Assembly: GCF_964340395.1 (NCBI RefSeq)
Contig: NC_135561.1
Coordinates: 8,761,732 to 8,825,731 of the forward strand
Direction of reading: 5' to 3'
Origin: Glandiceps talaboti
Taxonomy: Eukaryota; Hemichordata; Enteropneusta; Spengelidae
Length of the DNA: 64,000 bases
Below the pieces are notes generated by a model. The model was not told the DNA's origin, did not search any database, and was given only the letters and a program-made list of their open reading frames with translations. The position numbers and the translations under genes are program-made. Within the stretch, counting starts at the first letter, position 1, and each line of letters begins with the position of its first letter. Positions 13,401 through 57,193 of this stretch are shown in pieces.

Positions 13401-16400
13401 GTGTCTGATCAGATACCAAAAATGACTATTTTCCTCTTTGATAGATTGGGTGCAGATTTTGGGATTTAGCTCTGAGAGAACATGCCAGTCTAAATAAACA
13501 GGGAATTTTTGACGAATCTCTGAGCAGTTTCTTTAGGAATGTAGACACAAGGTAAGTAAACATGTCAACACTAGAGGGCAGTATAGTGTCCTCCATGGAT
13601 CTGAGAAGTATGGGTAGAGTGACAGAGTAAGTAGTTCATGGGGTTGAAACAGTCCTTTATTGACTAGGACAGGACATATATCAAGAGACGTCATTCTCAC
13701 TTATTCTGTCTCCATATTTTTGAATAGAGAAATTATAAATGGTCTCATATGGATGTAAAATTATGGGAACATTTTGAAAAGACTGAATTAAATAGGAGTA
13801 ACTTTGGTTGCTATGGATACCAGTAATAAATCATTATTATGATGATTCTTCTAGATATGATAATCCTGCTAATCTACCTATGGGATCGGGTCGTAATAAA
13901 ATTAAAGCTCTCAAAGCTAGGGTAAGTACAACAAAATGTGCATTATATTGTGAATTGTACAGCCACACAGATTCATTGTGTACTGTCCATATTCTGTGTG
14001 TGTGTGTCTGTCTGTCTGTCTGTGTTTATGTGTATGTGTGAATGTGTTTTCTTGTATGTCTGTGTAGTAACTGTAAACCTGGGAATCTTTTGTGAAAGAC
14101 TTATTTTCACTTATTTCTCTATAAAAAAATGCAAAAATAAGTAGTGACTAAAACGTCTTCTTGTACATGAACACAATGTACCAGTCTGTAATGAGTAAAT
14201 AGTAGTCTCTGAGAACTAGCTGCAGACTTTAAAATTGCAATGAAAATATCTTGGTTTACATTTTATATATAAATATACTTGAAATTCACCTGATAAACAT
14301 CCCAAGCATCTATGTCCGCATTCCATTAATTTAAGTACACTGTACTTATGCAGTTGACAGGGTTTGATGTATCAAATATTCAGCCTCCCAGTCAGGTATA
14401 TTTCATTATAAGGGGTCTCTTACATTCATTTCTACCAGCTATCTAAATCATCAGTGTGATGTAGGAGATATACACAGAAAAGCCATGAAAAATGTTTGTT
14501 GTTGACATTCTTGCATTTTTACTTTACACTGACTTACAGGCAGTCATCATTGATATGGAGGAAGGTGTTGTCAATGATTTATTGAAAGGTCCATTAGGAG
14601 ATGTCTTTGACTGTCAGCAATTAATTACTGATGTGTCAGGATCTGGAAATAACTGGTAAGTGAAACAAGACATATTTCTTCTTGGTGGAAGCCATATTAC
14701 TGTAGCCTGGAATCATGCAGATGGAGATTTCAAATTTTGGTTTTCACACCACACGAAAATCAAAATTTAAAATCCTATCTGCATGTATTCCAGGCAATAT
14801 TTACTACAATTCATTCACTGCAGTGCCACCAAGTGGTATAATGTTAACAATCAGTCAATGTGTCTTCATATGACGACATTTGTAATGATTAACAGTACAT
14901 AAACACATTTCAATTTTGTGAGTTTATTGTGTATGGACCACTATAATAAACTGACAATACACAAATCATGACACATGCAGCTTGCAGTTTCTTTGAAAGT
15001 AATCTCCCCAATATCTGGTAAAATTTACATATTTGATTCCTGTACACTATGATTTTGATGGGGAACTGTTGTAAAATACATTTGGCACTCAGTTAGATTT
15101 TACCGACATACCACAGTGACTGTAAGAAGTAGATTGAAATCATGGGTCCATATCGTTATATATTATCAGGGCTGTAGGTCACATGACGTATGGTCAGCAA
15201 TACAGAGAAGAGATAATAGAGACGATAAGAAGAGCAGCTGAGCACTGTGATTGTTTGCAATGTTTCTTTGTTTTACATTCTATGGGTGGAGGTAAGTAAT
15301 ACCAAACAGCAGCAGAGTACTGATGGTCTGCAGTGTTTCTTTGTTTTACACTCTATGGGTGGAGGTAAGTAATACCAAACAGCAGCAGAGCACTGATTGT
15401 CTGCAATGTTTCTTTGTTTTACACTCTATGGGTGGAGGTAAGTAATACCAAACAGCAGCAGAGCATTGATTGTCTGCAATGTTTCTTTGTTTTACACTGT
15501 ATGGGTGGAGGTAAGTAATACCAAACAGCAGCTGAGCACTGTGATTGTTTGCAGTGTTTCTTTGTTTTACATTCTATGGGTGGAGGTAAGTAATACCAAA
15601 CAGCAGCAGAGTACTGATGGTCTGCAGTGTTTCTTTGTTTTACACTCTATGGGTGGAGGTAAGTAATACCAAACAGCAGCAGAGCACTGATTGTCTGCAA
15701 TGTTTCTTTGTTTTACACTCTATGGGTGGAGGTAAGTAATACCAAACAGCAGCAGAGTACTGTGATTGTCTGCAATGTACACTCTATGGGTGGAGGTAAG
15801 TAATACCAAACAGCAGCAGAGTACTGTGATTGTTTGCAATGTTTCTTTGTTTTACACTCTATGGGTGGAGGTAAGTAATACCAAACAGCAGCAGAGTACT
15901 GTGATTGTTTGCAATGTTTCTTTGTTTTACACTCTATGGGTGGAGGTAAGTAATACCAAACAGCAGCAGAGTACTGTGATTGTCTGCAGTGTTTCTTTGT
16001 TTTACACTCTATGGGTGGAGGTAAGTAATACCAAACAGCAGCAGAGTACTGTGATTGTCTGCAATGTTTCTTTGTTTTACACTCTATGGGTGGAGGTAAG
16101 TAATACCAAACAGCAGCAGAGCACTGTGATTATCTGCAGTGTTTCTTTGTTTTACACTCTATGGGTGGAGGTAAGTAATACCAAACAGCAGCAGAGTACT
16201 GTGATTGTCTGCAATGTTTCTTTATTTTACTCTATGGGTGGAGGTAAGTAATACCAAACAGCAGCTGAGCACTGTGATTATCTGCAGTCACAGTCCCTTT
16301 ATCATAGAGGGACTGTGCTACAGTGTTTCTTTGTATGACATTGTATGGTGGAGGTAAGCGACACCAAACATTTGGTGGTGAGCAAAATGTGAATTGCGTC

Positions 16401-17557
16401 CACTCCATCCCCACCATACACCCTCATTCTTTGAATATGAACAAAGGCAACTTTGATAATAAAACAGTTGGTTTACATGTAAATGTGACATGAAACATAT
16501 AAAATGATGTAACTGTCATTAATCTCAATTTTACTCTAAATATCCAGGTACTGGTTCTGGTGTTGGTACTTCTGTTCTTGGTTTATTAAATGATGAATAT
16601 CCAGATGTGTACAGGTAAAAAACTATTATGTAATAGCAATTAAATCGTATTGACATGTGAATACAGTGTTTTCTGCTAAGGTTTAGAAACCTGTTTAACA
16701 AAAGGGTAAAACATGCAGATAAAACATGCATAGATATCAATATTTTGTACTTTTACTGTAATTTTGATAAGGACACAGGTAATATAACTGGTTGTTTCGG
16801 ATACATTTTACCTATTTACAACCCTTAACAAAAACACTGTCTTAGTTGCCAGGTCGATGAACTCGATTATTTTCAAGTGAACTATTTCCATGGTCCTCAT
16901 TAGAATGGTTTGCTGTAATTTTTTTTTGTATTGTTATTATTTTATGTTTGTGATGAAATAAATTCAGTTCAATTCAATTCAATAATTTATGCTAATAAAA
17001 TGTACGACTCCTAATGTAACTAAGGTGTGTATTCAAACTCTGATAAAACATATGAATGTAAAAATTGTAAATTGAAAAAATGTGAATTTTATAGTCATAT
17101 AATATGAGGAATATCTTGTATAGATTTATAGTGTTTATCCTTTGTTATATTTTAGATTTGTGACTGCAGTTTACCCATCAGCTGAAGATGATGTAGTAAC
17201 ATCACCATACAATAGTGTATTAGCTATGCATCAACTCACACAACATGCAGACTGTGTCTTACCTATAGAAAACCAGGTAGGTCTACCCAGCTCAAAGTAC
17301 TTCAATACTATTTTGATTAGATGTCTGTACTATATGATATGTGCTTATAGGGTGAACTTTACACAGCGGACACAATGAACCATGTATCACACACTTGTAT
17401 TTCAAATCAATAAAGTGGCATACATCCTGTAATTTTAACAGGGCACAAGCTGAGTTTAATGTTTTTGGGGAGTAATTTTTTCTGCATATTACAAGGTACT
17501 CACAGTATTCTACTGACTGGTGTATATGTAACAGTGTGTTCTCTAATGATAGCCAAA

Positions 17558-17599
<42 letters not shown>

Positions 17600-20500
17600 G
17601 AGTCAAAATGAGAGAAACTAGGATTTCTTGTGAGTCACCACATAGTAAGAGATAGGGGAACACCAAATTTTGGTGTGTCACTAGAAATTGTGTGAGTCAG
17701 TGTTACATCAAATAGGCTTAGAGGGCACACTGATATGTAACCATCACTTGCAATTGACTGAACTCAAACCCGATATTAGGATATAACTCATAAACGATTC
17801 GATGGCGTAATTTATTATACGTATAAAAAAATGTACAGGAACTCTGTACTATGCAATCAACAGTTCTAACAATGCCAGAACACATATTGTAAATTAATGT
17901 CTTCCATCAACATTAACACTATACTAGAGTAGTTTAGTTGAAGTTATTTGTAAGTATTTTAAAAAGCTTATAAACTCATCTTGCGGCTCTTTAACTTGTT
18001 TGTATCACCACCACCCACCCACCCAGGCTCAAGTTCAAATGTTGGCACACATGTGCATTTGAGAATTCCTTGTTCGTGTTTATAATTCTCTCCAATGTTT
18101 TGTAAGAGATCTGATCAAGGGGGAATTGCAAGCAAGAACCAAAAAGGTCCTAAAAGTACCATTTATCATAGTGTTATTTGATAACAAACCATTGAAATTA
18201 GTTACCTTATTTATTTTGACAGGCACTGGTTGATATCTGTAATAAAATCAGTCAAGCTCTGCCACCTGACAAGCCTGGTAAGAGAGTAATGGGAAGCACT
18301 GGTAGAGTGAAGGCAGACAGTGCTGTAACAGCTAGTACTGGTGGTGTTGTCAAATCTAGTGAAGAAAAACCATTTGACAAGATGAACAATATAGTGGCTA
18401 ATTTACTTCTTAATATGACAAGGTATACACTTTATGTACTAAGAATTTATGCCATTTCAGTGGAAGATGATTTTTTACACTTTGGTGCCAGTTAGGTAAA
18501 TCAACCATGTGACTCTAAACTACATGTGTATTCCATTGTCATGTCTAGTACCATACTTATAGCTGTATCACTTATCTCATAAAATCTTTCAATAAGGGAT
18601 TTTTACGGCTCATTGCAGATCTTGCGAGATATGCAAATATACCTGGCAACAGCCGTTGTCAAACGTGATCGTGGTCATGCTTTCGCCATGGCCATGTGTG
18701 ATGATGTTGAGAACAATAGTGTTCCTAAGCATTTGATACTTTTGACCACCCTCACGTGTGGTTGCTATGGATGCAGTGGCTCACATTAGATCTCGTGAGA
18801 TCTGCCACGAGATGAAAGACAGCTTATTGATTGTCAAGTCTACTTATTGATAAAGTTTTTGCCTTTCTAGTTCTGCCAGGTTTGAAGGTTCATTGAACGT
18901 GGATTTAAATGAGATTACGATGAATTTAGTTCCATTTCCACAACTCCACTATCTGGTATCTAGTTTAACTCCACTGTACTCCCTGTCTGATGTAAAGGTA
19001 CCCCCTAGAAGGTGAGTGTCTAGTTTGACCCCACTGTACTCCCTAGCTGATGTAAAGATACCTCCTGTAATAAGGTGGTATCTAGTTTGATCCCACTGTA
19101 CTCCCTAGCTAACATAAAGGTACCTCCTTTAAGGCGAGTGTCTAGTTTGACCCCACTGTACTCCCAAATCGACACAGTTACTTCCTAGAAGGTGATCGAC
19201 TGTCTTCTATCGTGAACTCCAACAGGAATGTAATTCTGAGACTCTTGGACGGCGTTATTTCAAACGTACAAAATAATATAATGTATGATATTACTGATGG
19301 AATTAATTTCAAAGCAATTTTGGAGTAAAATGTTGATGTTATTAATGATAACAATGTAACGTAAATAAACACCATATATTTTGTTACATGACTGATTTTT
19401 ACAGACATCGGTATTTTGTCTTGTAAATTACAGGCTAGATCAAATGTTTTCAGATGCCTTTTCCAAAGACCATCAACTAATCAAAGCTGACCCCAAACAT
19501 AGTTTGTATCTGGCTTGTGCCTTAATGCTGAGAGGCAATGTAGAGATATCTGATGTCAGGAGAAACATTGAAAGGTAAAGTACATATAGTCCTCTGAGCA
19601 AATTGCTATCAGCCACTACTTTCAATATCACTGCTATCACTATGCTATTGTCATTTAGCACCATTATGTGGCCTCTACTATTACAACTAACACTATCACC
19701 AATACCACCATCATCGCCATTAACCACCACATGTCCACTACCACCACTGTCATCGCCACCACTACCACTATTGTCATCTTTAACTACCACCACATGCCTA
19801 CTAGTAGTACAACCACCATTACTACCATCACAACTTCTTGGTCCATGTATCGGCATACTGATCATATTTCACTCCACATACACTTTTGGTCACCTCCCCC
19901 ATCTATGTACATTAACATAAAATATTGATATGTTACACCAAACCAACCATAATAAGGTACAGATGTACATATAAAATACACAGAAATTACAAATGTGTAG
20001 TCCAGTGTTCTACTTGGTGACATTTCTACATATGCTGTAACTTTCAGAAACAGTTTGAAATGATTTCCATAACAACATAAATCATGTAAATTAGCTATAA
20101 TGCTGTGATAAATTCCTATAGTATCACCTAGTTCTGTTAAAGTACTTCTTTCAAGTTCACTGTTAAAAATATACCGAGTGCATTTCTACATGTGAATATT
20201 TGTACTGTTAGTTGACTAATTCTGTATTGGACTGAGTGTTATTTTACATATACACTTATTGTCTGGCTATGAGGGCACTAGCAGATGTCTAGGGCTATTG
20301 TGCAGTCAGTATTTCCTGAAGCTGAAAGGCAAGGCAAATAGTCGCTACATAACAGCACAAGGGTTGATATGTCTACTAGTGCCCAAATAGGGCAAGGCAA
20401 TATGGGACATCATGATCTCAGGAACATATTCTGTCCAAAGTTAAAGCACATCACCAAAAAGACTTCCTTGCTACTGAGTATTGCCCTAGGGAAAATAAAA

Positions 20501-21756
20501 TGCTATTAGTGCTCCCAATATGGAAATTTAGGTCACTACAGCTCAATAGCCAATATCATGTGATGAGCTCTAAGCCAATCACTGAAGCTTGTATGAATAT
20601 GATGTGTTATAACAGTTATTATATCTCTGTTTTATAGGTTGAAGCCTTCCCTAAAGTTTATCCATTGGAATCAGGAAGGTTGGAAGACTGGTCTGTGTTC
20701 AGTACCACCAGTTGGACAACCCCACTCACTGCTAACACTAGCTAATAATACATGTATACGACATACATTCTCTGATCTCAAAAGTCGATTTACAAAACTC
20801 TACAAAAGAAAGGTACAGTTTGAGTTCTACTAACCTGTTGAAGTTTTCTCCCCATAGTAACAGTAATTTTCTGAGAGCCAGAAGTCACCAGTCTGAAAAC
20901 ATTTATTCCTTTCTTGCGTTTTCAAAATGCCAGATTCAGAGAGGGAAAAGTACACCTCTTCTCAATCAACCAACATAGGAGTATGAACCTCTGATACAAT
21001 ACCCACCTTCCCCCTTGAGTATATACCCATGTAGAGGGTATGATTGCACACATCAGTATGCCCATTAAATTAATCATACACACCACTGACAGTCATTTCT
21101 TGTCATGTTTGATGTTCTCCTATTCTTTACTTTATATATCTTAATACCAGGTGAGTATGTAGTGACATACTAGAAAGTCCAATTTTTACCCACATCAAAA
21201 GTTTAGTCTCTTATTAGAGGGGAAAATACTGCATGTACTACTAGATTTGTTCTGTGTAAGTTTGTCAGTTGCCGAGCAGTTAGCTTGAATGTCCCTTACC
21301 TCTGCAGCCTGGGTTCGAACTTCCTAGGTGTCAGCTGGGTGTGATTAAAATTTAACAGGTCTGTATGTAAGAAGGTTGATGCTCAGTTTGAGCCTGCCAA
21401 AAAGTGCAGGTTTTCCTGTTTGAACACTAGGGCACTGCTCATATGGTAACTATTCAACAAATTTCCAAATTTATTTGAACAAGTAAAGATTATTTATTAT
21501 TATTATTATTATTATTGTTATCTCATGAAGTTACATGCACAAAGTTTAGTGATATTTTGTTTTGGTGATGTTATTTGTATTTTCACCCTTCTTCTAGGCA
21601 CATTTACACCACTACACTCATGTTGATGGAATGGAAATGTCACAATTCAGTGAAAGTTTAGAATCATTGACCACACTGATGAAGGAATACGAAGGACTGG
21701 AAGCTAACATGGGTAAAGTTGTACAAGATGTACAAAGACTGCAAATTGCATCATGA
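10406..21756 (+). CDS. TUBE1: Epsilon-tubulin
   Basis: Thirteen exons on the plus strand: 10406-10430, 10878-10897, 13445-13551, 13855-13921, 14540-14655, 15170-15291, 16548-16614, 17156-17276, 18223-18422, 18871-19011, 19434-19574, 20638-20812 and 21598-21756. They total 1,461 nt, or 486 aa. Exon 2 is a 20-nt microexon. The N-terminus MTQSIVVQVGQCGNQIGCRF is epsilon-type, and the tubulin GTP-binding signature GGGTGSG is split by intron 6. The central part carries the epsilon-family insertion rich in Ser/Thr/Lys (exon 9), and the C-terminus ends LQIAS instead of an acidic tail. Epsilon-tubulin works with delta-tubulin at centrioles and basal bodies, where triplet microtubules are built or stabilised. 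Three exons (6, 10, 13) have their 3' ends copied in tandem into the following sequence. The first copy at each junction is the one that keeps the tubulin frame, which fixes the exon ends. Confidence 0.97.
10683..10696 (+). promoter_or_regulatory. RFX-type X-box in TUBE1 intron 1
   Basis: GTTGTCATGGCAAC matches the X-box consensus (RYYNYY, 1-3 nt spacer, RRNRAC) at every position. A second half-site, GGCAAC after CAT, follows at 10708-10713. RFX factors drive ciliary and centriolar genes in animals, and the site lies about 280 bp inside TUBE1 and about 1.27 kb from the DNAJC27 start. The match is direct; the regulatory role is inference. Confidence 0.6.
11281..13145. mobile_element. Non-autonomous inverted-repeat element in TUBE1 intron 2
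   Basis: A 73-bp segment at 11281-11353 reappears as its reverse complement at 13073-13145 with about one mismatch; both arms contain GTGTACATGCAAAGGTACAT. The 1.9 kb between the arms has no long ORF or recognisable transposase, but contains a perfect palindrome at 11793-11825. Sequence outside the arms shows weaker inverted similarity, so the true ends may lie further out. A DNA-transposon derivative is likely; an inverted duplication is the alternative. Confidence 0.65.
11793..11825. repeat. Perfect 15-bp palindrome
   Basis: CATGGATGTATTAGT and its exact reverse complement flank a three-base GAG loop. It is flanked by a direct repeat of GTTGACA and sits inside the intron-2 inverted-repeat element. 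Confidence 0.85.
14705..14795. mobile_element. Foldback element, about 41-bp arms
   Basis: GCCTGGAAT...TTTTGGTTTTC is followed after about nine bases by its near-complete reverse complement ending ATTCCAGGC. It lies in TUBE1 intron 5 and has the size and form of a minimal MITE. Confidence 0.8.
15234..16370 (+). repeat. Exon-boundary minisatellite from TUBE1 exon 6 and its 5' splice site
   Basis: The last ~58 nt of exon 6 plus the donor GTAAGTAATACC and a few intron bases are repeated in tandem downstream. Donor-like GGAG|GTAAGTAATACC junctions occur at 15292 (the true one), then 15365, 15438, 15511, 15586, 15659, 15732, 15796, 15871, 15946, 16021, 16096, 16171 and 16244, with a diverged copy (GGAG|GTAAGCG) at 16354. 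Units are 73 or 75 bp, with one shortened to 64 bp. In the tubulin frame every copy stops just past the donor (GGT AAG TAA). The last unit carries a hairpin at 16289-16317. Confidence 0.95.
16289..16317. repeat. Short hairpin inside the last exon-6 array unit
   Basis: Arms CACAGTCCCT and AGGGACTGTG with a nine-base loop, present only in the distal diverged unit. It explains why that unit is longer (110 bp between donor-like sites). Confidence 0.7.
17562..17600. repeat. (GTT)n microsatellite
   Basis: About 12 uninterrupted triplets in TUBE1 intron 8. Confidence 0.95.
17837..17995. repeat. Dispersed repeat family C, copy 1
   Basis: In TUBE1 intron 8. Shares CTATGCAATCAACAGTTCTA, TATACTAGA(G/A)TAGTTT and AAAAAGCTTATA in order with 54384-54550, at similar spacing. 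Confidence 0.8.
18594..18836. repeat. Dispersed repeat family A, copy 2
   Basis: In TUBE1 intron 9, immediately before exon 10. Diverged copy of 1088-1312, with the palindromic AGATCTCGTGAGATCT near its right end. Confidence 0.85.
18955..19198 (+). repeat. Exon-boundary repeat from TUBE1 exon 10 and its 5' splice site
   Basis: The last ~56 nt of exon 10 with its donor (CTAGAAG|GTGAGT) are followed by three decayed tandem copies at about 19019-19077, 19078-19140 and 19141-19198. Each begins TCTAGTTTGA(C/T)CCCACTG. Only the first copy keeps the tubulin frame and a good donor. Confidence 0.9.
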
Positions 21757-22215
21757 GTTCGGAATATAATGTGTGATGAGGGGGGGGGGGGGCACGAAGG
21801 AGGGTGCAATGTTTGTTTGTTTTTGGTTTTTGGTTTTTTTGTTGTTGTTTTTTTTTTTTTTTTTTTGGGGGGGGGGGTGTTAGAAACCTATATGGGTAAA
21901 GTTGTACATGATGTACAAAGACTGCAAATTGCTTCATGAGTGAAGGACAGGGAGGGGTGAAAATGTGGGGAGGGAGGCAGTTAGAATGTTCAAAGACTGC
22001 AACTGACAATGGTAATGTTGTCAAAGAAACCACAAATTGCACGAGTTGGGAAGAGAGAATGGAATAGAATGTAACGAATGGCTACAATCCACCTACTGGT
22101 ACTTACCATTGTCATATATAGAATAAATTACATCAGAAGTTTGTATGGGGGGGGGGGGGGCAAAGAATCTAATGAGGGTCGGTAATTGTTGTCTGAGAAA
22201 CCACTCATTGTATCA
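21707..22215 (+). repeat. Repeat from the TUBE1 terminal exon end
   Basis: The last ~50 coding nt and stop (GGTAAAGTTGTACAAGATG... TCATGA) recur at 21889-21940, nearly unchanged, and again in decayed form near 22008-22044 and 22177-22215. G-rich and T-rich homopolymers (21781-21792, 21840-21878, 22147-22160) lie between copies. The first copy joins exon 12 in frame and is taken as the real end. Confidence 0.75.
22122..22127 (+). terminator. Candidate TUBE1 polyadenylation signal
   Basis: First AATAAA after the stop codon, about 366 nt downstream. Position alone supports it; the next hexamer is at about 23040. Confidence 0.35.
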
Positions 22216-22894
22216 TGATTTGTGTATTGCCACTTTTAATAATGGACAATACAAGAGACATTCTGAACTACTACACAATTTATCAGGGACTTAATAACAT
22301 TCCAGTATTGGTAACTCATACCAAGATATTTGAGACATTTTCTAAGGAGTGCAAAAAGTAACAAGTACTAGCCATCAATATAATCCTTGACATTTTTGAA
22401 GAACAACTCTTTGACAAAAGGTAAAGGTAAGGTAATCATGGACCTTCTGTCTGACGAATACCTGTGTACTGAAAAAAATTCAAAAATGTGAAATTAGAAA
22501 TTTTACTAAAGTGTACCTACATTGACATTTATATTCTAATGAGTGTTGTCACCTCTAGATTTAACATATACAATATAACCCTACAACTCTTTAGCATTCC
22601 ATAATTTAGTGACAAAACAGAAAGACTAACTGATAAACGGACTCAACGTTGAAGGAAATTACACATATGCTTAGTTTGTAATTTAGAACACTGCAAACTA
22701 ATTGTCTTTTCTGTAGTTCGGCTTTACATCAGTAAATTCCATTGTTCATGGCATATGGTAGGCGATGAAATTATAAACAGGTTTTCACTATTCTCGAGTA
22801 GTACACGTCACGTTTCTGGTCCAGACATTTCTTGGTACAATTTCCTTCAGTTTTGCATTGTCTATATATCAAGCAATAATCAGCACCTTGAACT

Positions 22895-23350
22895 TTTATA
22901 GAATAAGATTCAATATTGATCTGCGCAGTCATGTATTATGGGTCACATGACTTGAGGTAGAGAATTTACAAAGAACATGTGATATGTCGATGTAAGCATG
23001 TGCCCCTTGTGACACATTCTGACCTGTGGAACTTTTATAGAATAAAATTCAATATTGCTCTCTACATGTATTATGGATCACATTAATCAAGTCTAAAAGA
23101 ACATGTGACACCCATGTGACATGTCTACATAGGCATGTGACTCTCATGTGACGTATTCTGATCTGTGGAACTTCATAGAATTGCCCTCTCCATGTATTAT
23201 GGATCACATGACTCAAGTATAAAGAACATGTGACTCTCATGTGACATGTATTCTGATCTGTGGAACTTTTATAGAATTGCCCTCTCCATGTATATGGATC
23301 ACATGACTCAAGTATAAAGAACATGCGACACCCATGTGACATGTCTACAT
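22895..23350. repeat. Degenerate tandem repeat, about 90-135-bp units
   Basis: Four units, each with TTTATAGAAT, CATGTATTATGGATCACATGA and AAGAACATGTGACxCxCATGTG-like blocks. The later units are shorter. The CATGTGAC/GTCACATG motifs make it locally palindromic. Confidence 0.8.
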
Positions 23351-23832
23351 ATACATGACATATCTCTAGGAATATATTTCATCTCATATAAAAGACTTTG
23401 CAAGAAACTTTGAATTCATCCTCTTATTCCACTGGTGTAAAATTGTTGAAAGAAAAAATTCTAGGATATCACCACAGGATAATTTATGTTCTTCATAAAT
23501 AGTAGTAAATAAAGTTACCTTATTGGAATCTAGTCTTTGAAGTGGCTACATAGCTCACAGTAGATCTATAAAAAAAATGTTATGAAAAACAAATAACTAA
23601 AACTCTGAAAAGAAATTTTCATTTTGTCATCAAAAAATTTTCTTTCAACATCAGATTAATTTTCTTCATGACAATGAAAGGAATTACACAAAACTCGTTG
23701 AATATCATTCAATTTTATTTGCTGATAATTATATCTATAAGTATGGATTTGAAGTAATATGCAATTACATGTACAATATATCTCTTTTACATTTCACATA
23801 GACTATTATCTATAAACTGTGTTATCCGATTA

Positions 23833-24150
23833 ATTATCACTGTACTACTATGGCTAATACAGTGCCATTGAAAATGAACTTTGTAATACACAGAATGTCA
23901 GCTACTAGAATTTAAGACCACAAAGGGGTGTGTAGCAAAGTCTGAGGAAAGCTAACTAACCGAACAAGTTCTATCGATTATCACTAAACTACTATGGCTA
24001 ATACAGTGCCATTGAAAGTGAGCTTTGTAATACAGAGAATGCCAGCTACTGATATTTACTCCAACTATACAGCCACACATTCAGGAATGAGCTGTAATTT
24101 CTTAAAATTTCCTTGTCTGAAGAAAGCTAACTGTAACCAAACAAGTTCTA
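23833..24150. repeat. Tandem duplication, about 145-bp unit
   Basis: ACTACTATGGCTAATACAGT...TTTGTAATACA(C/G)AGAATG...GAACAAGTTCTAT occurs twice in direct orientation. The second copy has an insertion before the shared AAAGCTAACT end. Confidence 0.8.
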
Positions 24151-24968
24151 TGCTGTCTGCATGTGGCACCCTACTTGTGCTTATGACTAACTTCAATGAG
24201 TTTTTATTCTTGTTAATAACACAACCAAGACAGAAGATAATGCATATGATTGATATCTACCACCTAGTCTTTGTTACCCAGACTCACGTCGTTGGGAGCT
24301 ACACCTGCTCAGCAAGTCTGGACCATTACATTGCCGCCTATTAGAAGGAGCAATATGGTCACTGTTGAGATCTGAGAGTCGCTAATTGGACAAAAATTAT
24401 TCTGAATTTTTATTTTCTTTAACTCTGTATATATGTACTTTGGGTACTAGTCATTTCATGATTTCACATCACATAAATTTCACTCAATTTCCAAGAAACA
24501 CAAAATTGAAACTCTCTTTTTACGTCATTTGTTCTTTCAATAATATACTGTTACCTCATGGGTCTTAGCAGATATGAATATGGATTAGATGAACACTGAA
24601 TATTCATGACTCCTAAGTGCTTATTTTATTGAATTACAATACTCATGAATATACATTTACAAATTTATGTGATTTGAAATGAAATTACTCTCCAGAATCC
24701 AAAGTTTATGAAAACACATTTCCTGGAGTTTCATTTTTAACAACATCTAGAAAACTATAGTTCTGAGTTCTTATAGTATTTTATGATTTGATAATTATCT
24801 TACTAAATACTACCTACTAGATAAAAGATTATGAATGATGAGTTTCAAGAAAAAGTGTGTTTATCATTATTGGGGTGATTAAACATTGGTCGACCACTTT
24901 AAATAAGATTTTCGCAATAATTGTATTTAAACTATGGTTGAAGTAATGACCTTGAAAATAAGTTTATG

Positions 24969-25370
24969 TTACAATTCTCGCTATCTGCAATTCTATGCAT
25001 CGCTAAGGAGTCAAATGGAATGCAGTCTCGCGACCGCGCTTGCATTTGTCGACACCTACACTTCTGGTCGCCTATGTCAATACACGTGAATGTTTCTTCC
25101 AAACAGTTTAATTTGTAACAAATAAGATAAACGCAAGTTTTAAGCTCATATAATTATGGAGGTGGGAAATTTAAATATGTGTAGTAGTATCTTTCCAGAG
25201 CAAAATTACAAGAGATGTCTACAACTGAAAATGGGAAAGAAACTTTCCTGTGTATTACCATAGCCGACCGGAAGTGTAGTTGTCGACATTAGAACGCGTT
25301 GTCGCGCGACTTCGTTCCATTTGACTCCACAGTGATGTGTAGAATTGTATTGCAGGTAGCGAGAATTACA
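24969..25370. mobile_element. MITE-like element with ~100-bp terminal inverted repeats
   Basis: The left arm starts GTTACAATTCTCGCTA; the right arm ends TAGCGAGAATTACA. The arms align as imperfect reverse complements over about 100 bp, sharing AGTCAAATGGAA and TGTCGACA(A/C)CTACACTTC. About 200 bp of unique AT-rich sequence lies between them. No ORF. Confidence 0.8.
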
Positions 25371-25775
25371 GTACATTTCCATCTTGATGCAAGCTCATTT
25401 GTGTAAGTTACCGTGACAGCATGGACATTTAAACATTTGAGACACTACACACAATAGATAGGACTCTGTTAATCCAGCCTTTGGTTGACTTCAATGTGGT
25501 AGATTACACAAGCGAGTGATAGCGGTTCCTCTGTTGAGCAATTCTAATCACCCTGTGATCAAGATAGTGTAAACGTTGGAGGTCCCAGTACACTGCAAGT
25601 TCATGGAACTCTGGCAATAAAAGTCTGGTACACCTCCCTACTGAGACTATAATTAAACCAACGTCCATTCAATACTGGTAGATTATCACTGTTGTATCAA
25701 CATGTTGCGACAAATAGTTTGACTTTGTGTCTATCTTAGAGAACCAAAGGCTTAATATTAATACCAGAGTGATAT

Positions 25776-25921
25776 TGAGTGAAAGCAAAGTTGAAGCTTT
25801 TCATCCATACCTATGGACTTGTTCAAATAATTCCAGTGATGAGTCATGTGACCGACCCAGAATATCAAACTAGTGAACAAGTCCACAGGCATGGACGAAA
25901 GCTTAAGTTTTGCTCTCATTT
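25776..25921. mobile_element. Foldback element, about 46-bp arms
   Basis: The left arm GAAAGCAAAGTTGAAGCTTT... and the right arm ...AAAGCTTAAGTTTTGCTCTC are imperfect reverse complements, both ending at TGGACTTGTTCA / TGAACAAGTCCA. It lies about 170 bp downstream of the lectin-gene stop. Confidence 0.75.
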
Positions 25922-26092
25922 AAATATCAATTGTGTGTGTAGTGTCTCAAAAAGTTGAAATGTCTATGTTACAGTTGATACACATTTCCATGTTAAGTGT
26001 ACATGTAGACTGTAGTTGTCATATGATCACATCTCTGTCAATCACTACAAATACACCGGATCAGAATTTCCAGCTTCAGAATCAATCAGTAA

Positions 26093-29000
26093 TTACTCAG
26101 TACTTGTTCTACAACAGATAGCTACAGCCCATACACCTCTTGTGTTGTTTCCCATGCTGCCTTGACCTCCATTGATAGCTTTGCATGTACCATCTAATGA
26201 AAAAAGAGATATGTGTATTAGGGACTGGGTGACCCTATTATTTTTTCTGTTTCTCATTACCCAACCGACCCAAATTTTCAGCTCCAACATCCAAATAAAA
26301 AAAATATAATTATCGACCACCCTTAATATTTTGTGGAACAGTGCCCTCTCTGGCAAGAATAAGCAAGTGTCTGGACTGTCCATGTCATCTACAGTCATGG
26401 TGGCGGCGACAACACTTTATTCAACTAGGGGGCTAAGAAAATACCAATTGTGTAGAGAAGCTGGGAAAGGGCTTGTTAACCAGGAATCCAATAAAAAGAA
26501 GATAGGGAGGAGGAAAAGGAGAGGCAGAGAAACACGTAGATGATTTATTTTATTTTTATACTTTCTTTTTTTTAAACGACCGGCTGACCCATAGTTGCAA
26601 TGAAAAAGTAATGAGAAACATAAAAAGACATAGGTTCACCCTTAACAATTGGTCTGGTTGGATTGCTAGTGCGAAGTGTCATAGAGGTAACTCCATATCC
26701 TGGCACAGACACACACAGATAAACATATGTATACGCACACATACACACTATACTTCTTGGAGTCTTTTGAATTCTATTTTTGACTTTGTATAAGTCCTTA
26801 AAATATGAGTATTTGAAACAGAACCAAAGGAAAGATAGATTTATTTTTACCAGTAATGTAAGCTCCATCTGTCATACCCCAGTATGTAAAAACACTGCAT
26901 CCAGTCATGGTCCAGCCAGACTCACAGCTGACAGTGGCCTCAGCAAAGGATACACCATCACTTCTATCAGAGTAGATCTGCTGACATTGTAAACCAGGAG
27001 CACTGCAACACGCTGCTTCAGCCCAAACACCTACAACATCAAAATAGACTGTGTAAAATTGGGGGTACTGCAACACACATTTCAAACCTGGAGCGCTGCA
27101 ATGTGCTGACACCTACAACATGAAAATACACATAAGATGTATATACTGCAACATGAAAATACAGATAAGATTGGAGCACTGCAACATGAAAATACACATA
27201 AGATTGGAGCACTGCAACATGAAAATACACATACGATTGGAGCACTGCAACATGAAAATACACATAAGATTGGAGCACTGCAACATTACAACATTTCAAA
27301 CCTGGAGCACTGCAACATGCTGACACCTCCAACATGAAAATACAGATAAGATTGGAGCACTGTAACATGAAAATACACATACGATTGGAGCACTGCAACA
27401 TTAAAATACAGATAAGATTGGAGCACTGCAACATTAAAATACAGATAAGATACAATAACCATACAGAAACCAATAAGAAACTGCACACGCTACACTTTAA
27501 GATAGCAAGATTGAATGAAGTTTCTCGTAATATCGAAATGAAATGAAGTAATGTGTCACCATGCCCACATCAAAACACTGATGACTGCGTGTCTGTGTCT
27601 ATTTGCAGTATATTATTATTAGTTTATTTCATCTCCACAAAATGTTGCAAGAAATTATAATCTGGAATATTTTAGTGTAACACATACTCTGTATTGGTTT
27701 CTGCAGGGTTGTATCAAACAGAGCTACTGAATGGTGACTTGAAATGTGCTGTACCATTAGACAAAAGATGTTAGCCACTAACCATGTCCATAAATTCCAT
27801 TCTGTGCTACACATCCATTCTTCTGAAAGCCTGTCTGTCTGTTAGATTCAATGTCAGAAGAGTGGGACCATGGTCTAGCACCATCCAACCATTGCCAGTA
27901 TGTATGTGCCATACAGCCTAAAACAAGTAAACCATACAATGTAGTTTCTATCAAATGTAAGAAGTGATCAGTGTAAACAGATGTGTAAGTGCCATCTATG
28001 CAATAGGGAACTGGCAAACCTGCAAATGGCAAGTGAAAGTTTATACAATGGGAAATCAAACCTACATTAACCTTCTCAGTTGGGTTTTTCATTCAATTAG
28101 ATTGAGATCACCTTGTAAAATACACAAATTGGACAAAACACGACTTTTTTGTATATTTGCTATGGGAGTTCACATTGTTGTATTGGTAAGTTCACATTTT
28201 CTTCACACACTGCTTCTACATACATTACACATCTTACTTACCAAGTGGTTGTGCATGTTGGTAAGGGTTTCACATTGTTATTTTACTTACCAAGTGGTTG
28301 TGTTGGTATGGAGTTTAAATTGTTCTCACACATTGCTTCTGTAACAGCATCATCTTCAACACCTGATTTCCAGACAGAGTCGAAGTAGTAACACTCTAGT
28401 TCTGACCATTTACAACACCTGGCTACAGCATAAACACCTGGGAAAGCAGCGACAGATGACAATATGTAGAATCATGTATTTTGTTCTGTGTAAACTTCAT
28501 ACACACAGCATAATTTCATAACAGCATGAGAGACTACACTTAATGTGTCCCACTTTTATTTTTGAGACATTTACCTTTGGCCTTGACTCTTATAATTTCA
28601 TTACAGCATGAGAGACTACTCAAGTGTCCCACATTCTTTTGAGACATTGACCTTTGGCCTTTCTGTTTCAGTTATCAAGATGCAGCAATTTCCTGTGTTA
28701 TCAGACATTTTGTAGCATTTATCTTTTGTTACCAATTTCTTTTAAATTGTGTCGTCATTCACTCACATAGAAGCATTTGAGGGGGGGGTGTATCTCCTAC
28801 AAAGACTTGTTTTTGTGTTAACTTTATACAGAGAGCATAATTTCATAAAAGGATGGAGATTTCATCTGCTAACTGTTAGTCTTGTGCTGTCTAGACTATA
28901 TAGATGGCATAATTTGATATTTTGGTAGTCACAATGTCACAGAGAATGCTCGGTCGCATAGATCTTACGAGGAAAATAATTTCCTTGTCTGTGTTCATAT

Positions 29001-31664
29001 TATGGGGCAACTCTTGATACAAATAGCCTCTTTGCATGCTACTGCTTCACTACATCTATAAATGCAGTGTTTCTTTACTACAGTACATTGGTATTGATAT
29101 TGGCTGCAATGTCTGAACATTATAACTGGTTTAAAGTTACTGTATCTGGCACATCTTTTCAAACTGTTTAGTTACAAAAAAGTGACTTACCCGGTACTGT
29201 TTTATCCTGATATACATTGAATTGCCTATCACATGTGTTTAGCCGTATGACAGCATGAAATGATGAAAAGGTAGTCTTGATTTCAGATATACAAGGTTTA
29301 GTTCTTACCTCGCCCACCGGCGCCATTTTGAGCTACACATTTGGGTTTAGAAGTGTACTGTACAATTCTGTCACCATCACGAGAACCGTGTGAACGTTCA
29401 TCTAATGTGACACTGTTACATGATGTCATCACTTCATCTTCCTCACATTCTACCTCTATCTGGACATCATCACCAAATTCTGATTTTTCAGACCATCTAC
29501 TGATGCACTCTGGTTCATTCTCAGCTGTTGAGTTATAGTCATATAAATTGTGGTGAATTCACATACTGCAAGATACTAAGTTTTATGGATAAATAATTCA
29601 AAGAAATCTGAGTAATTTAACCCACAATGGGCACAGCCAGGGCTATAGGAATGACCCACATCTGTGCATGTGTGCGTGTGTGCGTACGTGTGTGTGTCAG
29701 TCTGTGGCCACACATATCTCCAACATCCATTTCAACCAAACCTGGCACAAATGTTAAACACTAAAATGTGCATATGTACTTCATTTACTTTTGTGACCTT
29801 GATTTTTTATGACAAAAGGGTGACACTATTTGTCCTACAGGACTTGTTCTGTGTATACATGAGTAATTGAATTGGCTAATGAACATACTGTTACAACAAT
29901 AAGTTTTTATAAAGAGTGGGTTAAGGAAGTGTAAAAGGGCTATTGAGTTATTAGAGGTCAATGTCACAGGTATTAAATTTTAAAAGCACTGTAGAAACAT
30001 ACATTATAACATAATTATACAGAAAACATGAAAAGATAAATACAACTGTGGCAAGCCAGCTTTCAGCTTTAAGATAGACGCAAACTATTATTGCATCATG
30101 TTATAATCTATTCCAGGACTAACATGAAAATATGCGTAATTCAGCCTCGTTTCTAACTTCCAGTGTTAACACTATCTTGATATATTACAAGGTGATTATA
30201 TCTGTACAGCAAAGACAATTATCATTTACTCAGATTTACTGTCACCCACTTGTGGTAATTATGTACCAAGTTTGATTAATTTAGATTAGCTTAAATTAGA
30301 TTTAGATTTGATTCATTTTTTTGGTGTGTAAATTCTTATGTCATTAAATTTACTCATTAATGTGAGAGATTAAGTAGTTTTTAAGGTCTTGCTTTGTTTT
30401 TATCTGGACATTTATACTGTTTAACCCTTTCATGGATGTTTATTCTTTTTTGAGTTTTGTAAAGTGCATTGAGGCTGTTGCACTGATAACAATTCATTAT
30501 CATTACTATTATTATTATTAGATTAGATTAGCTTAGATTAGACTGAACAACAATACTTTCAGTTTGTGTCTATCATAGTTAACTGAAACCTGGCTTTCCA
30601 CAGTAATAAATTACCCTGTAATGTAGTGACTTGGATTTGGAAACCGTTCAGTTGAATAGAACTATCACTAACAAATGATATCCAAATTGGGGATTCCACA
30701 GTAATTGGGCCTGGAACAGTAGTACCACTGAAGTCTTCAATTTCATTTTCATATTTTTGATCACCACTGCCAATGGTTACTTCATCACAACAACCTTCAG
30801 TCGAAAATGATAGAAACTCCACCTGGATATAGTAACAATGGAAGTTAGTAAATAGTAACATATATCTTTATGACAACTTTCAAAATGATAGAAACTCCGC
30901 CTGGATATAGTAACAATGGAAGTTAGTAAATGATAACATATATCTTTATGACAACTTTCAAAATGACAGAAACTCCACTCTTTGTGATGACCAATCAGAC
31001 TGTCACTGTGTAACAACCAATCAGGGTGACTCATTTTGATGACCAACCACATTGACACTTTGTAACAACCAATCAGGGTGACTTTTAGTAATGACCAATC
31101 AGGGCAACTCTTGTGGATGACCACTCACACTGACTTAAATTGTAATTACAAATCACAGCAACTTTGTGAGAGGAGTCAGTATGACTTTTAGCTTTGTCCT
31201 TTGCTGCTTATGGAGAGAAATATCATCCTGAATATCATAATGAGATAGTTTACACTTGTCCTTTCTGCTCTTCATTGACTACCTGTCCAGTACATGTTTG
31301 AATACAAAGTACAAGTGATCACCTACAAAGCACTCAATAACACTACTCATAGTAACATCACTAACTTGATTTACAGTAATCCTGCACCTCATTCACTTCA
31401 CTTCAAAACAACAAAGTCTACTTCACATGCCCTGTTGTAATACAAAGTCATACAAATTGAGCGTGTGTTTTCACAAGCAGTGCCCCTCTCATGTCAACAG
31501 TATACCACTTGAACTTCGTTCATCACCCACTGTCGATAAATTCAAGAACGATATCAAGACACATCTGTTCACAAGATGTTTCGAACTTTTACAAGGATCT
31601 ACTATTGTTCCTGTGCAGCACCTTAGAACATTAAGTTGAATTTGATTTTGGCGCTATTCAAATT

Positions 31665-31701
<37 letters not shown>

Positions 31702-32913
31702 CATTGATTTACCTTTAACTTAGTGTTTGGACTAGATGCAGAAATAACCCAATGACAGTTTGAGTTGGTCCAGTATTCATTTGGATAGTTTGGTGATGTT
31801 ACCAGGGCAATGTCTCCTTCCCCAAGTACAAATCTTTGTCCATTAGATGCTGAACAAGCTTCTATGGATGTTTGAAGTGCACCTGTCGATGAACAACATG
31901 TAAATGTGTTATTATAATTTCTATTGCGATAGTTGACTATTAGTATTATAAACCTCAACCTGGTGTTAGCTTTAGTAGTACACTGCACCAGCTTTAGGTG
32001 AGTATTGATTTGTTAGAGATGACACTTCCTTCTAGATTATGTCATATTATGTGTACCAGTATATGATAGCATACACCCGCCCCCCACCCCCAACCCTGCC
32101 CCCAAAGTGCAAGTGTGGCATGAAAGAACAGCAGAACTTCTAAAAAAAACATTTTTATACATTGTGGCCACCATTACAGTGATACAAGCTAACTTTGTTA
32201 CATTGTGGCCATCATTACTGTACAGTGGTGCCAGCTAACTTTGTTACGTTGTGGCCATCATTACAGTGGTGCAAGTTAAGTTTGTTATATTTGTGGCCAT
32301 CATTACATCAAGTAGACATTTCTTGATACACTATTAGAGAGTGCTATTATTTGGACTATCACAATGGGTTCCGTCCATCTGTAACATGTCAATTCTCAAT
32401 CAGACATGCAACATCCAACTTCTTTCAAAGCGCAGCAGGCACAAAGGTGATATTTCATATGGGACATATACACATCATTTTCTTTCATGACATATGCATA
32501 TTCATGACAATTCCATACCTGTATGTTGTACATCTTTGAGTGTTATGCTAAATCCTTTATCTCTTTGATATCCTGTTGCTTCCGTAGACAGATGGATCCA
32601 GACAGCAGAGGATGAAATTGTCCTTGTTGGTATATTCATCCAGTTATTTAATGTCATTTGTTGATTTACACCACTCTCATCACCCTCACCTATGTAGACA
32701 TTGGCACAGCATGATTCTAGTCCAACATCATCTATGCTTATCTAAATGAAAATATATACCCATAAAAAAGAAATTATGCACATTATACCAAAACACATGC
32801 AAGCAAGCAACCCTCCCCCTCCAACATTCTCTATCTGTCTCTGTCTCTCTGTCTCTGTCTCTCTGTCTCTCTGTCTCTCTCTCTCTCTCTGTCTCTGTCT
32901 CTCTGTCTCTCTG

Positions 32914-32988
<75 letters not shown>

Positions 32989-35900
32989 TCCTTACCTCAA
33001 TTTCATGACTATCTTCAGTTTCTATAATCCAATGACAATCTGCATAACTAGGATAATAGTCAGGATAAGCTGGTGATGTCACAGTCACCTCTCCACCATG
33101 TGGAATGGTGATTCTCTTGGTTTGACTGCATGCTTCTACTGGAGAGTCAATTACTGTCAAATCAAAGAAAGACATGATTATGTCTTGGTTTGGCTGCAGG
33201 CTTCTACTAGAGATTAGGCTACTGTCCTGTCAAATCACAAACCATGATTATATGTCTTGACACAGAGAAGCAAAGCAGAAAAGCAAACATCATACCTTCA
33301 TACACCTCTCTATAATCAACACAACCATAACATTCACAATGAGCTGAGCTGATACCACACCAGTGTGCAGTAGAGCAGCATGGATAGATTCCATTGGGAT
33401 TGCATTCAGCAGCTCTGAGTCCATTAGGTGCAGGATAACCACTTCCACATTGGACATCTTCTCGGTATGCCGGCTCTAACGAAAGTAATACAATAAATAT
33501 TTGACTTTCATAATTATTTATCACAAAATAAAATAAACTGTAAATCCAACTTAATGCTTAAAATGCTGTCATTACGAATCACAAGCTTTCACAATCCATC
33601 AATCTTCATCAGTGTCTCCAACATAACTTGCTAATTTGTATCTGAATTTTTACGACAAATATGGCCCCATTTGGCCATTATCGAGGTCACAAAACAAAGT
33701 GGTGTCCATACTGTTTCTGACATTTGTGCCAGGTTTGGCAAAGCATAATGTGTGTCCAATTCATGACAATTACATACTTGTATTTTTTACAAATGTACAT
33801 CTCTGACTGAGTGTTATCTATTTCTGACAATTCCATACCTGTATGTTCTACATCTGTGTCCAAGTTATCTATTCATGACTATTCCATACCTGTATGTTCT
33901 ACATCTCTGAGTGTCCAAGTTATCTATTCATGACTATTCCATACCTGTATGTTCTACATCTCTGAGTGTTCAAGTTATCTATTTCTGACAATTCCATACC
34001 TGTATGTTGTACATCTCTGTGTCCAAGTTATCTTTTCATGACTATTCCATACCTGTATGTTGTACATCTGAGTGTCCAAGTTATCTTTTCATGACTATTC
34101 CATACCTGTATGTTGTACATCTCTGAGTGTCCAAGTTATCTATTTCTGACTATTCCATACCTGTATGTTGTACATGTCTGTGTGTCCAAGTTATCTAGTC
34201 ATGACAATTCCATACCTGTATGTTCTACATCTCTGTGTCCAAGTTATCTTTTCATGACTATTCCATACCTGTATGGTGTACATCTCTGTGTCCAAGTTAT
34301 CTTTTCATGACTATTCCATACCTGTATGTTGTACATCTGAGTGTCCAAGTTATCTTTTCTGACAATTCCATACCTGTATGTTGTACATCTCTGAGTGTTC
34401 AAGTTACCTATTTCTGACTATTCCATACCTGTATGTTGTACATGTCTGTGTGTCCAAGTTATCTGGTCATGACTATTCCATACCTGTATGTTGTACATCT
34501 CTGAGTGTTCAAGTTACCTATTTCTGACTATTCCATACCTGTATGTTGTACATGTCTGTGTGTCCAAGTTATCTGGTCATGACAATTCCATACCTGTATG
34601 TTCTACATCTCTGTGTCCGTTATCTTTTCATGACTATTCCATACCTGTATGTTGTACATGTCTGTGTGTCCAAGTTATCTATTTCTGACTATTCCATACC
34701 TGTATGTTCTACATCTCTGTGTCCAAGTTATCTTTTCATGACTATTCCATACCTGTATGTTGTACATCTCTGAGTGTCCAAGTTATCTATTTCTGACAAT
34801 TCCATACCTGTATGTTGTACATGTCTGTGTCCAAGTTATCTAGTCATGACTATTCCATACCTGTATGTTGTACATCTCCGAGTGTCCAAGTTATCTAGTC
34901 ATGACAATTCCATACCTGTATGTTGTACATCTCTGAGTGTCCAAGTTATCTAGTCATGACAATTCCATACCTGTATGTTCTACATCTCTGTGTCCAAGTT
35001 ATCTATTTCTGACAATTCCATACCTGTATGTTGTACATGTCTGTGTCCAAGTTATCTAGTCATGACTATTCCATACCTGTATGTTGTACATCTCCGAGTG
35101 TCCAAGTTATCTAGTCATGACAATTCCATACCTGTATGTTGTACATCTCTGAGTGTCCAAGTTATCTAGTCATGACAATTCCATACCTGTATGTTGTACA
35201 TCTCTGAGTGTTCAAGTTATCTATTTCTGACAATTCCATACATGTATGTTGTACATCTCTGTGTGTCCAAGTTATCTATTCATGACTATTCCATACCTGT
35301 ATGTTGTACATGTCTGTGTGTCCAAGTTATCTATTCATGACTATTCCATACATGTATGTTCTACATCTCTGTGTGTCCAAGTTATCTATTTCTGACAATT
35401 CCATACCTGTATGTTGTACATGTCTGTGTGTCCAAGTTATCTTTTCATGACTATTCCATACCTGTATGGTGTACATCTCTGTGTCCAAGTTATCTTTTCA
35501 TGACTATTCCATACCTGTATGTTGTACATCTGAGTGTCCAAGTTATCTTTTCTGACAATTCCATACCTGTATGTTGTACATCTCTGAGTGTTCAAGTTAC
35601 CTATTTCTGACTATTCCATACCTGTATGTTGTACATGTCTGTGTGTCCAAGTTATCTGGTCATGACTATTCCATACCTGTATGTTGTACATCTCTGAGTG
35701 TTCAAGTTACCTATTTCTGACTATTCCATACCTGTATGTTGTACATGTCTGTGTGTCCAAGTTATCTGGTCATGACAATTCCATACCTGTATGTTGTACA
35801 TCTCTGAGTGTCCAAGTTATCTAGTCATGACAATTCCATACCTGTATGTTGTACATCTCTGAGTGTTCAAGTTATCTATTTCTGACAATTCCATACATGT

Positions 35901-38900
35901 ATGTTGTACATCTCTGTGTGTCCAAGTTATCTATTCATGACTATTCCATACCTGTATGTTGTACATGTCTGTGTGTCCAAGTTATCTATTCATGACTATT
36001 CCATACATGTATGTTCTACATCTCTGTGTGTCCAAGTTATCTATTTCTGACAATTCCATACCTGTATGTTGTACATGTCTGTGTGTCCAAGTTATCTATT
36101 CATGACTATTCCATACCTGTATGTTGTACATGTCTGTGTGTCCAAGTTATCTTTTCATGACTATTCCATACATGTATGTTGTACATCTCCGAGTGTCCAA
36201 GTTATCTATTCATGACAATTCCATACCTGTATGTTGTACATGTCTCTGTGTCCATAGTTATCTATTTCTGACTATTCCATACCTGTATGTTCTACATCTT
36301 TGAGTGTTATATTAAATCCTTTATCTCTTTGATACTGTGATGCTTGCGTAGACAGATGGATCCAGGCAGCAGATGATGAAATTATCATTGTTATTGGTAC
36401 ATTCGTCCAGTTATCTAACGTCATTTGTTGATTCGTACCAATCGAATCACCCTCGCCCACATAGACATTGGCACAGCATGATTCTAGTCTGACATCATTA
36501 ACCGTTACCTAGTAAATGAAAAATTACATGATAGAAAAGACTAAGTGACTGTACAAACTGATTAAATAATCAAAAAATCAAATTTCTTTTTAAAAAAAGC
36601 CCATGTATGTTTTTTGTGCAAAACTTAAGCTACTCATTAATATCAACAATGAATTGAATGTTCAAGGTCACAAATATAACTTTCAGGGATCTATGTATGG
36701 GACACATAGTTATGGTGACTTACATTTAGTCAAATAATACACCACACTCATTTAAATTAAACGTATGTTGATCCAGTAGTTTGAAATACTGGAAGTGTAT
36801 GTGTACACCAAACAAACTCGGCATCTTCTCATGTCTGAAGATTTCCCAAATATTCAGAGTTTTCTTTTCTCAGACTGCTACATTAATTGCAATAAAAAAC
36901 ATTCTAAAACTATAGCAACAATCCATTGTGAAAGAACTTCCACAAGACAGATATTTTAATATATTTTTCATGTGATTCAAAAGCAAAACCTTTGGATTGG
37001 CATTGAATGCTAAGTTGTCTACTGTATCCTGCCTTAATAGTTAAAATTAAAACCAGCCACTGCTTACCTGAACATTATGACTATCTTCAGTTTCTATAAT
37101 CCAACGACAATCTGCATAACTAGGATAATAGTCAGGATAAGCTGGTGATGTCACAGTCACCTCTCCACCATGTGGAATGGTGATTCTCTTCGTTTGACTG
37201 CAGGCTTCTACTGGAGAGTCAGTTACTGTCAAATCACAGAAATGATAATTAGACATTAGTACTTATTGAGCAAATTGCTATTCACCTTGAACATGAAGGT
37301 CAAGGTCAAAATCAGCATCTGAGTGACTGGCAGGTCTACCTCTAGCAATGTGTATGTGATCACTTTTCATGTGCATATTTGTTTGACCTTGAACATTTGA
37401 AGTCAAAATTCAAGGTCAAAAAATGAAGTTTACATCTCTAAGAATAATCACTCAGGTTATCAATGGGGAATATCATCATTTATCTAATATGCTAGTGTAT
37501 ACCATTTTAATAAGTCCACACAAAACAGATATCTTATTACCTTCATACACCTCTCTATAATCAACACAACCATAACATTCACAATGAGCTGAGCTGATAC
37601 CACACCAGTTTGCAGTAGAGCAGCAGGGATAGATTCCATTGGGGTTGCATTCAGCAGCTGTGAGTCCATTGGGTGCAGGATTACCACTTCCACATTGGAC
37701 ATCTTCTCTGTATGCTGGTAGATCAACTTCTAAGATATCAACATAAACCAGGACTTAAAATTAAATGTAGTAGTCTCAACACCTGTTATATCAAGACATT
37801 GTCTACCAAATTTATATGGTGGTAGTCTGTTGGACTAATGTAAATCAATAGAAAAGTGTAGCTGTCTGAAACTGTTCACTTGCATCAACTAGCTGACAAC
37901 CAAGTGTAGAAGTTTAATTCGAACCCTGGACAAAATGTCACTGCGACATACCGGGCCCACAACATATTGTGAACCTGTGACTCCAACCTCATAAGGTTTC
38001 CAGTTTAGAATCAATGTGGCAGTAACATATGATAACTAAACATGACTGCATCTCTAAGACATATTAACTAAAACAACTGTATCTCTAAGACATGATAACT
38101 AATTTAACTATCTCTAAGACATGATAACTAAAACAACTGTATCTCTAACACATGATAACTAAAACTACTGTATCTATAACACATGATAACTAATTTAACT
38201 ATCTCTAAGACATGATAACTAAAACAACTGTATCTATAACACATGATAACTAAAACAACTATCTCTAAGACATGATAACTAAAACAACTATCTCTAAGAC
38301 ATGATATCTAAAAACAACTGTATCTCTAACACTTGATAACTAAAACTATTATATCTTCTAACACATGATGACTAACACAACTAAAGTTGTAATACAACCC
38401 TAACCTTCTCCAGACCCATCATCAGTTTCAAAAATATCAGTATCAGCTTGATAGACCTCAACTTCACAAAGAGTAAGATATTGGGTCCATCCCTCTAACT
38501 GTACACTGACATAGCGACCAGTAGCACCCCGACATTTAAAAGTGATCGGCCGTCCAGATGAGGCACGGTTGTTTTTCACCGTCCTTCCACACTGTGTGTT
38601 AACATGGAACATCTCGGACTCTGATCCTACACGAACAACAGCTCCCCGCAAACGTTCAGCTGTAATAAATGAAGTTATAATATGTACATGTTACGTGAGG
38701 TAATTCATGAAATTAACATACAGTCCCGGTTTTAGGCCAAAATTAGAATAGTATGTAAGACAACATGGAATTTTGTTTTCTTCTTGAATATACAATCAAC
38801 CCATATGTGATCAACACTAAACTGCTTGATGTTATGAAATGAAACACGTGCATGTTAAACCTGTACTAGCTATAACAGGGGTCCCTAAACATACTCACAA

Positions 38901-39814: not shown

Positions 39815-39847
<33 letters not shown>

Positions 39848-39867
39848 GACAGACAGACAGACAGACA

Positions 39868-39904
<37 letters not shown>

Positions 39905-56873: not shown

Positions 56874-57056
56874 CTGCGGAGAGCATAAACAATAAACTTT
56901 AATATAATACGAAATCTTTGAGAACTAAACTAGAATAGTACATATTTCAAGGTAAAACGGTGCTCGAGGTATTATCAATTATAGCTGTTGGTTGGTGACA
57001 TGTATGTATGTATGTATGTATGTATGTATGTATGTATGTATGTATGTATGTATGTA

Positions 57057-57087
<31 letters not shown>

Positions 57088-57154: not shown

Positions 57155-57193
<39 letters not shown>

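Follow-up and report, generated by a model that had tools for sequence, protein, structure and literature searches.

Minisatellites that overlap exon-intron boundaries, termed mirages, have been described in the globin genes of amphioxus, where Adh3 and other loci are cited as further cases, both boundaries can be duplicated, and intron gain from mirages has been proposed (PMC3087553). A mirage in PGBD5 was added later, with troponin C cited (PMC3902484). In human segmental-duplication genes, internal tandem repeats have been found at exon-intron boundaries, with 27 intron modifications (PMC2812944). In this work, we analysed a window of 64,000 nucleotides from the hemichordate Glandiceps talaboti, an enteropneust (contig NC_135561.1, positions 8,761,732 to 8,825,731), which holds the gene TUBE1 on the plus strand and a lectin gene, LOC144444621, on the minus strand. 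At eight of the 66 splice edges of these two genes, a repeat unit spans the exon end, the splice site and the adjacent intron. We consider it probable that these arrays are mirages, that is, ordinary minisatellites of a repeat-rich genome that are tolerated wherever splicing removes the extra copies.

Like the amphioxus mirages, the repeats of G. talaboti cross the exon-intron boundary on the donor or the acceptor side, and the two systems resemble each other in unit length (10-160 bp in amphioxus), in the AG/GT kept in many copies and, probably, in array turnover (PMC3087553, PMC3902484). An earlier note on this DNA had pointed to the amphioxus mirages, and they are indeed the same kind of boundary-overlapping minisatellite; its suggestion that the window extends mirages to acceptor sides is superseded, since acceptor cases are already described in amphioxus (PMC3087553). 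Unlike the amphioxus mirages, those reported here occur in a hemichordate, include 46 donors in one array and comprise one stop-codon case. In addition, normal splicing by reverse transcription PCR and somatic instability were reported for amphioxus, whereas our analysis of the G. talaboti arrays covered their sequence. The human repeats are likewise minisatellites at boundaries; however, the search for them was directed at recent paralogues, and transcripts often retain them too (PMC2812944), whereas those of G. talaboti also lie in conserved genes such as TUBE1 and kinesin-like genes. In intron gain by tandem duplication, too, the duplication crosses an intron-exon boundary and splice signals are copied; a new intron arose there, whereas our comparison covers boundary copies only.

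The gene models were checked against public proteins. The spliced TUBE1 model is 100% identical to the Glandiceps TUBE1 protein (P0001) over the modelled 471 aa, and the 19-exon model of the lectin gene is 100% identical to its public protein (P0121) over 1216 aa. Boundary copies were then sought by a boundary-crossing alignment at 68 edges of the two genes (66 splice edges and two stops), with a score of at least 36 and copies up to 1 kb away on the intron side. Nine of the 68 edges reached this score, against 0.9 expected from probes aligned with other 1-kb pieces of the window, an expectation that is too high because some of the pieces hold the probe itself. A block-shuffled null was dropped as too permissive, its flanks overlapping the probe. 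One of the nine, the donor at 32996, is a GA microsatellite and was taken out by hand from the edge counts; the repeats by the donors at 32996, 31713 and 39920 are simple repeats and contain no boundary copies. The eight remaining splice edges, four donors and four acceptors, score 43-120, so that both sides are affected, as had been claimed. The nine cases that the earlier note listed in TUBE1 and the lectin gene all exist, provided that its positions are taken as labels of exons. Of the eight positive splice edges, five are covered by arrays in Tandem Repeats Finder (TRF) and one more (27030) has an array nearby; TRF reports none for the cases at 33153 and 40135, which are degenerate acceptors. 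Among the 12 splice edges of a third gene of the window, DNAJC27-like, none has boundary copies.

The unit of mirage 1 (numbers as in Table 1) consists of 59 bp of exon end and 16 bp of intron start, and the array has 15 donors, a count that takes in both the authentic donor and the degenerate final one at 16353; GGAG/GTAAG is present at the 15 donors, the same string having served as the search string. In mirage 7, AG/GT is found in 41 of the 46 donors, which are spaced 51-56 bp apart. Mirage 3 is composite, with two copies of the acceptor plus exon start, at 27112 and 27326, lying among 33-bp intron arrays that are about 85 bp away from the edge at 27030. At the end of TUBE1, the TGA of the copied stop lies 183 bp downstream, so that this copy is not adjacent to exon 13. 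Reading through the authentic donor leads to a stop codon at four of four donors, translation from the distal acceptor copies meets one in six of six, and the first five donors of mirage 1, translated onward, likewise reach a stop. For the copies translated, this bears out the earlier statement that only the exon-proximal copy keeps the frame.

Table 1. Source exons and boundary copies in the G. talaboti window (positions of the window)
Feature	Position	Strand	Description
TUBE1 exon 6	15170..15291	+	donor is the source of mirage 1
Mirage 1	15233..16286	+	75-bp unit, 14.4 copies (TRF)
TUBE1 exon 10	18871..19011	+	donor is the source of mirage 2
Mirage 2	18956..19165	+	60-bp unit, 3.5 copies spanning the exon 10 donor
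TUBE1 exon 13, includes stop codon	21598..21756	+	
Copy of TUBE1 final coding bases and TGA	21890..21939	+	31/32 aligned bases identical
Lectin exon	26851..27030	-	acceptor (27030) copied in mirage 3
Mirage 3 (composite)	27031..27451	-	33-bp intron arrays 27116-27286 and 27330-27451
Lectin exon	28291..28437	-	donor (28291) copied in mirage 4
Mirage 4	28234..28324	-	45-bp unit, 1.9 copies spanning the donor
Lectin exon	30615..30822	-	acceptor (30822) copied in mirage 5
Mirage 5	30804..30978	-	78-bp unit, 2.2 copies spanning the acceptor
Lectin exon	32996..33153	-	acceptor (33153) copied in mirage 6
Mirage 6	33194..33251	-	single degenerate acceptor copy; 42 identical bases, 56-base probe span
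Lectin exon	36283..36508	-	donor (36283) copied in mirage 7
Mirage 7	33813..36307	-	55-bp unit, 46 donors including the authentic one
Lectin exon	39920..40135	-	acceptor (40135) copied in mirage 8
Mirage 8	40200..40330	-	two degenerate acceptor copies, edges 40219 (AG lost) and 40309

Mirages are also present elsewhere in the G. talaboti genome, in kinesin-like and tubulin genes. As a sample, 25 tubulin and kinesin stretches were picked from profile matches before their DNA was seen. They represent a minor share of all matches (103 for tubulin, 142 for kinesin), and short introns are favoured among them because the stretches were chosen for close neighbours. After removal of four pairs with large profile gaps and one unresolved pair (L041), the 46 neighbouring match pairs gave 41 introns with 82 edges. 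The donor of L042 was added by hand since it had been seen to be positive, and the count is thus 5/83 edges with it and 4/82 without it. The positives are the donors of L036, where the copies are decaying, of L042 (123-bp unit, two copies), of L039, on an uncertain splice model, and of L035, a tubulin intron whose acceptor is also weakly positive (scores 59 and 39; threshold 38). The last batch of the sample, seven compact introns, had no positive among 14 edges. Eight further tubulin loci (L001-L008) were scanned with TRF only. Another four loci, L053-L056, were chosen for carrying repeated donors and serve as examples, excluded from any rate. An open reading frame stands behind a good acceptor in L055 and L056, not clearly in L053 and L054, and the exons of L055 and L056 had no Pfam match above the cut-off. 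The stretches L056:1-851 and L055:1-851 (C1) carry two further candidate donor mirages, with 99-bp and 50-bp units. As a separate observation, a kinesin motor exon (profile positions of about 245-320) recurs at a spacing of about 1.8-2.0 kb in a number of contigs, a pattern that resembles a dispersed element or family in which the exon is repeated in tandem; the loci include C22:18850998-18856604, C22:19491767-19497360, C23:19036435-19042650, C23:19236811-19242852 and C11:22926056-22934877, among others.

If the arrays are ordinary minisatellites, a founding tandem duplication (33-123 bp in the present cases) would have straddled an exon edge by chance, presumably through slippage, template switching or break repair, and would have placed a second exon end and splice site in the intron. 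The exon-proximal copy is the one used by the public protein models of TUBE1 and the lectin gene, and would stay the spliced one in RNA as well; the extra copies would then be removed with the intron and thus cost little. Duplications within exons would mostly harm the protein, and edge-crossing ones would leave one intact exon end. Subsequently, unequal exchange between copies could have expanded the array, with homogenisation as in other minisatellites. Some copies have decayed and lost GT or AG; decayed copies are present in L036, L035 and at 40219. Block repeats point to such exchange: in mirage 7, identical unit pairs number 6/23 at lag 22 and 5/33 at lag 12, and units 6 and 7 of mirage 1 are identical to units 2 and 3, which suggests, within this one assembly, past turnover in the arrays. 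The genome is generally rich in arrays: 19 stretches placed arbitrarily, together 190 kb (5 kb of it N), contain 32 arrays of period at least 15, so many edges would be affected. Moreover, the exonic part of the source copy is presumably kept constant by selection; old duplications would therefore be recognisable for longer at edges, and part of any excess there may follow from this.

The arrays could alternatively be artefacts of the assembly, as tandem arrays are difficult to assemble. However, their copies differ among themselves and occur at several loci and contigs of a genome assembled in 47 contigs, and an artefactual origin is extremely unlikely, even though the copy number of an array in the assembly may be wrong.

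A different explanation is that duplications are actively generated at exon edges by a process linked to transcription or splicing, such as R-loops or nicks at splice junctions, so that the edge is a hotspot. The array counts of the window weigh against chance placement and in favour of this process. In the three gene bodies, TRF gave 15 arrays of period at least 20, or 14 after the arrays at 27116 and 27330 were joined, the joined array being classed as straddling although it is about 85 bp off the edge. Six of the 14 straddle edges (five by TRF position and the composite one), against 1.3-1.8 expected by random placement, the range reflecting the unit length taken (P 0.0007-0.004, post hoc; P 0.005-0.023 when the composite case at 27030 is left out). 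A second such point comes from intron interiors. Many-copy arrays flood intron controls, and interiors were therefore weighted by 1/copy number, so that founding units were counted; interior positions within edge-derived arrays were excluded from the pooled control. With window and sample pooled, 13/159 edges are positive against a corrected interior rate of 2.4%, a ratio of 3.4 at the loose threshold (bootstrap interval 1.6-6.9, which excludes 1), and at three stricter thresholds the ratio is 2.3-2.7 with intervals that include 1. Measured by raw coverage, interior positions fall in repeats at a rate close to that of edges (180/1769 positions against 13/159), which speaks for ordinary minisatellites. 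An earlier enrichment measure by raw coverage, 736/2874 control positions against 9/66 edges at 21 or more matches, was dropped. The tubulin intron of L035, affected at both ends, also agrees with a hotspot.

On the other side, the window was selected for this very feature, and the separate sample alone gives the 5/83 (or 4/82) edges against 2.2% of interiors after copy-number correction and 12.7% by raw coverage. The copy of the TUBE1 stop end, moreover, involves no splice site. Genome-wide motif counts, in which an 8-mer and its reverse were compared for how often each occurs in pairs 38-68 bp apart, are conflicting. The 8-mer AGGTAAGT is paired in 3756/28973 instances against 1920/36815 for its reverse (2.5x per instance), AGGTATGT in 4378/36564 against 2608/39746 (1.8x) and TTTTACAG in 2627/56241 against 1251/78108 (2.9x); in the opposite direction, AGGTGAGT is paired in 2210/17700 against 4715/21312, and in all these counts long arrays weigh heavily and the pairs, being clustered in arrays, are not independent. 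The same AGGTGAGT forms a long array of about 5.3 kb at C1:2287892-2293242, at 46-bp steps and multiples. For donor-like 7-mers in arbitrary stretches, there is no pairing excess, with 1/101 against 358/4402 for shuffled ones, a comparison that is hard to interpret, since real donors are probably few among the 7-mers and simple repeats occur among the shuffled ones. The argument of the earlier note that ordinary minisatellites would fall on boundaries too rarely thus receives support from the post hoc window, with little from the sample and conflicting signals from the motifs. Outside the window, the preference for boundaries is weak; edges may carry a modest excess of two- to three-fold, and a strong one is unsupported. 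We regard an active process at edges as unlikely. Its wider form, in which edges are true hotspots through a process common to cephalochordates and hemichordates, would make mirages an ancient deuterostome trait that steadily supplies duplicated splice sites and raw material for new introns; this seems improbable as well.

The copies might also be retained for function: the extra donors could tune splicing, or the recruitment of the U1 small nuclear ribonucleoprotein, by serving as decoys or enhancers. The donor of mirage 7 is the least variable stretch of its unit, which drift alone does not strongly predict and which is a further point against tolerated minisatellites: the 15 columns round it hold five minor-variant counts, the minimum among the 56 circular windows, and AG/GT persists as described above. 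However, nine of these 15 columns are the string used to cut the units, and in mirage 1, where the donor string was also used for cutting, the donor window is just one of 19/75 invariant windows. Copies in other mirages, as noted, have lost GT or AG. Furthermore, within the duplicated modules of the lectin gene, the edges at 36283, 33153 and 40135 have copies, but their counterparts (the donor at 32519 and the acceptors at 37225 and 38659) are outside the 18 best edges listed. Retention for function is accordingly very unlikely in our view. The absence of the counterparts from these 18 also implies that the arrays at 36283, 33153 and 40135 are probably younger than the module duplication, or were lost on one side.

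The remaining features of the window are as follows. The lectin protein (26093-45256, minus strand) has Pfam matches to C-type lectin, kringle, F5/8 type C, CUB and PCSK9 C-terminal-like modules, and a chitin-binding match below the Pfam cut-off. In the third gene (9400-4251, minus strand), seven exons were recognised, with a Ras match; we take it to be DNAJC27-like, and its last exons to be DnaJ-like. At 56238-61534 on the minus strand, there are frames with weak matches to Death and ZU5 domains, and TRF reports ATGT microsatellites at 57000-57327 and 57784-58466, of 82.5 and 172.8 copies.

Among the open-licence literature matches listed, screened by title and the start of the abstract, we found no report of a hemichordate mirage. 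As far as the literature was searched, mirages therefore reach a second phylum, in TUBE1, kinesin-like, tubulin and lectin genes, and their pattern is probably a harmless by-product of a genome filled with tandem repeats. Loci at which dozens of near-identical donors follow one another offer a natural test of how the spliceosome chooses the first donor, and the rate at which splice-site duplications arise would be visible from the array lengths of different alleles.

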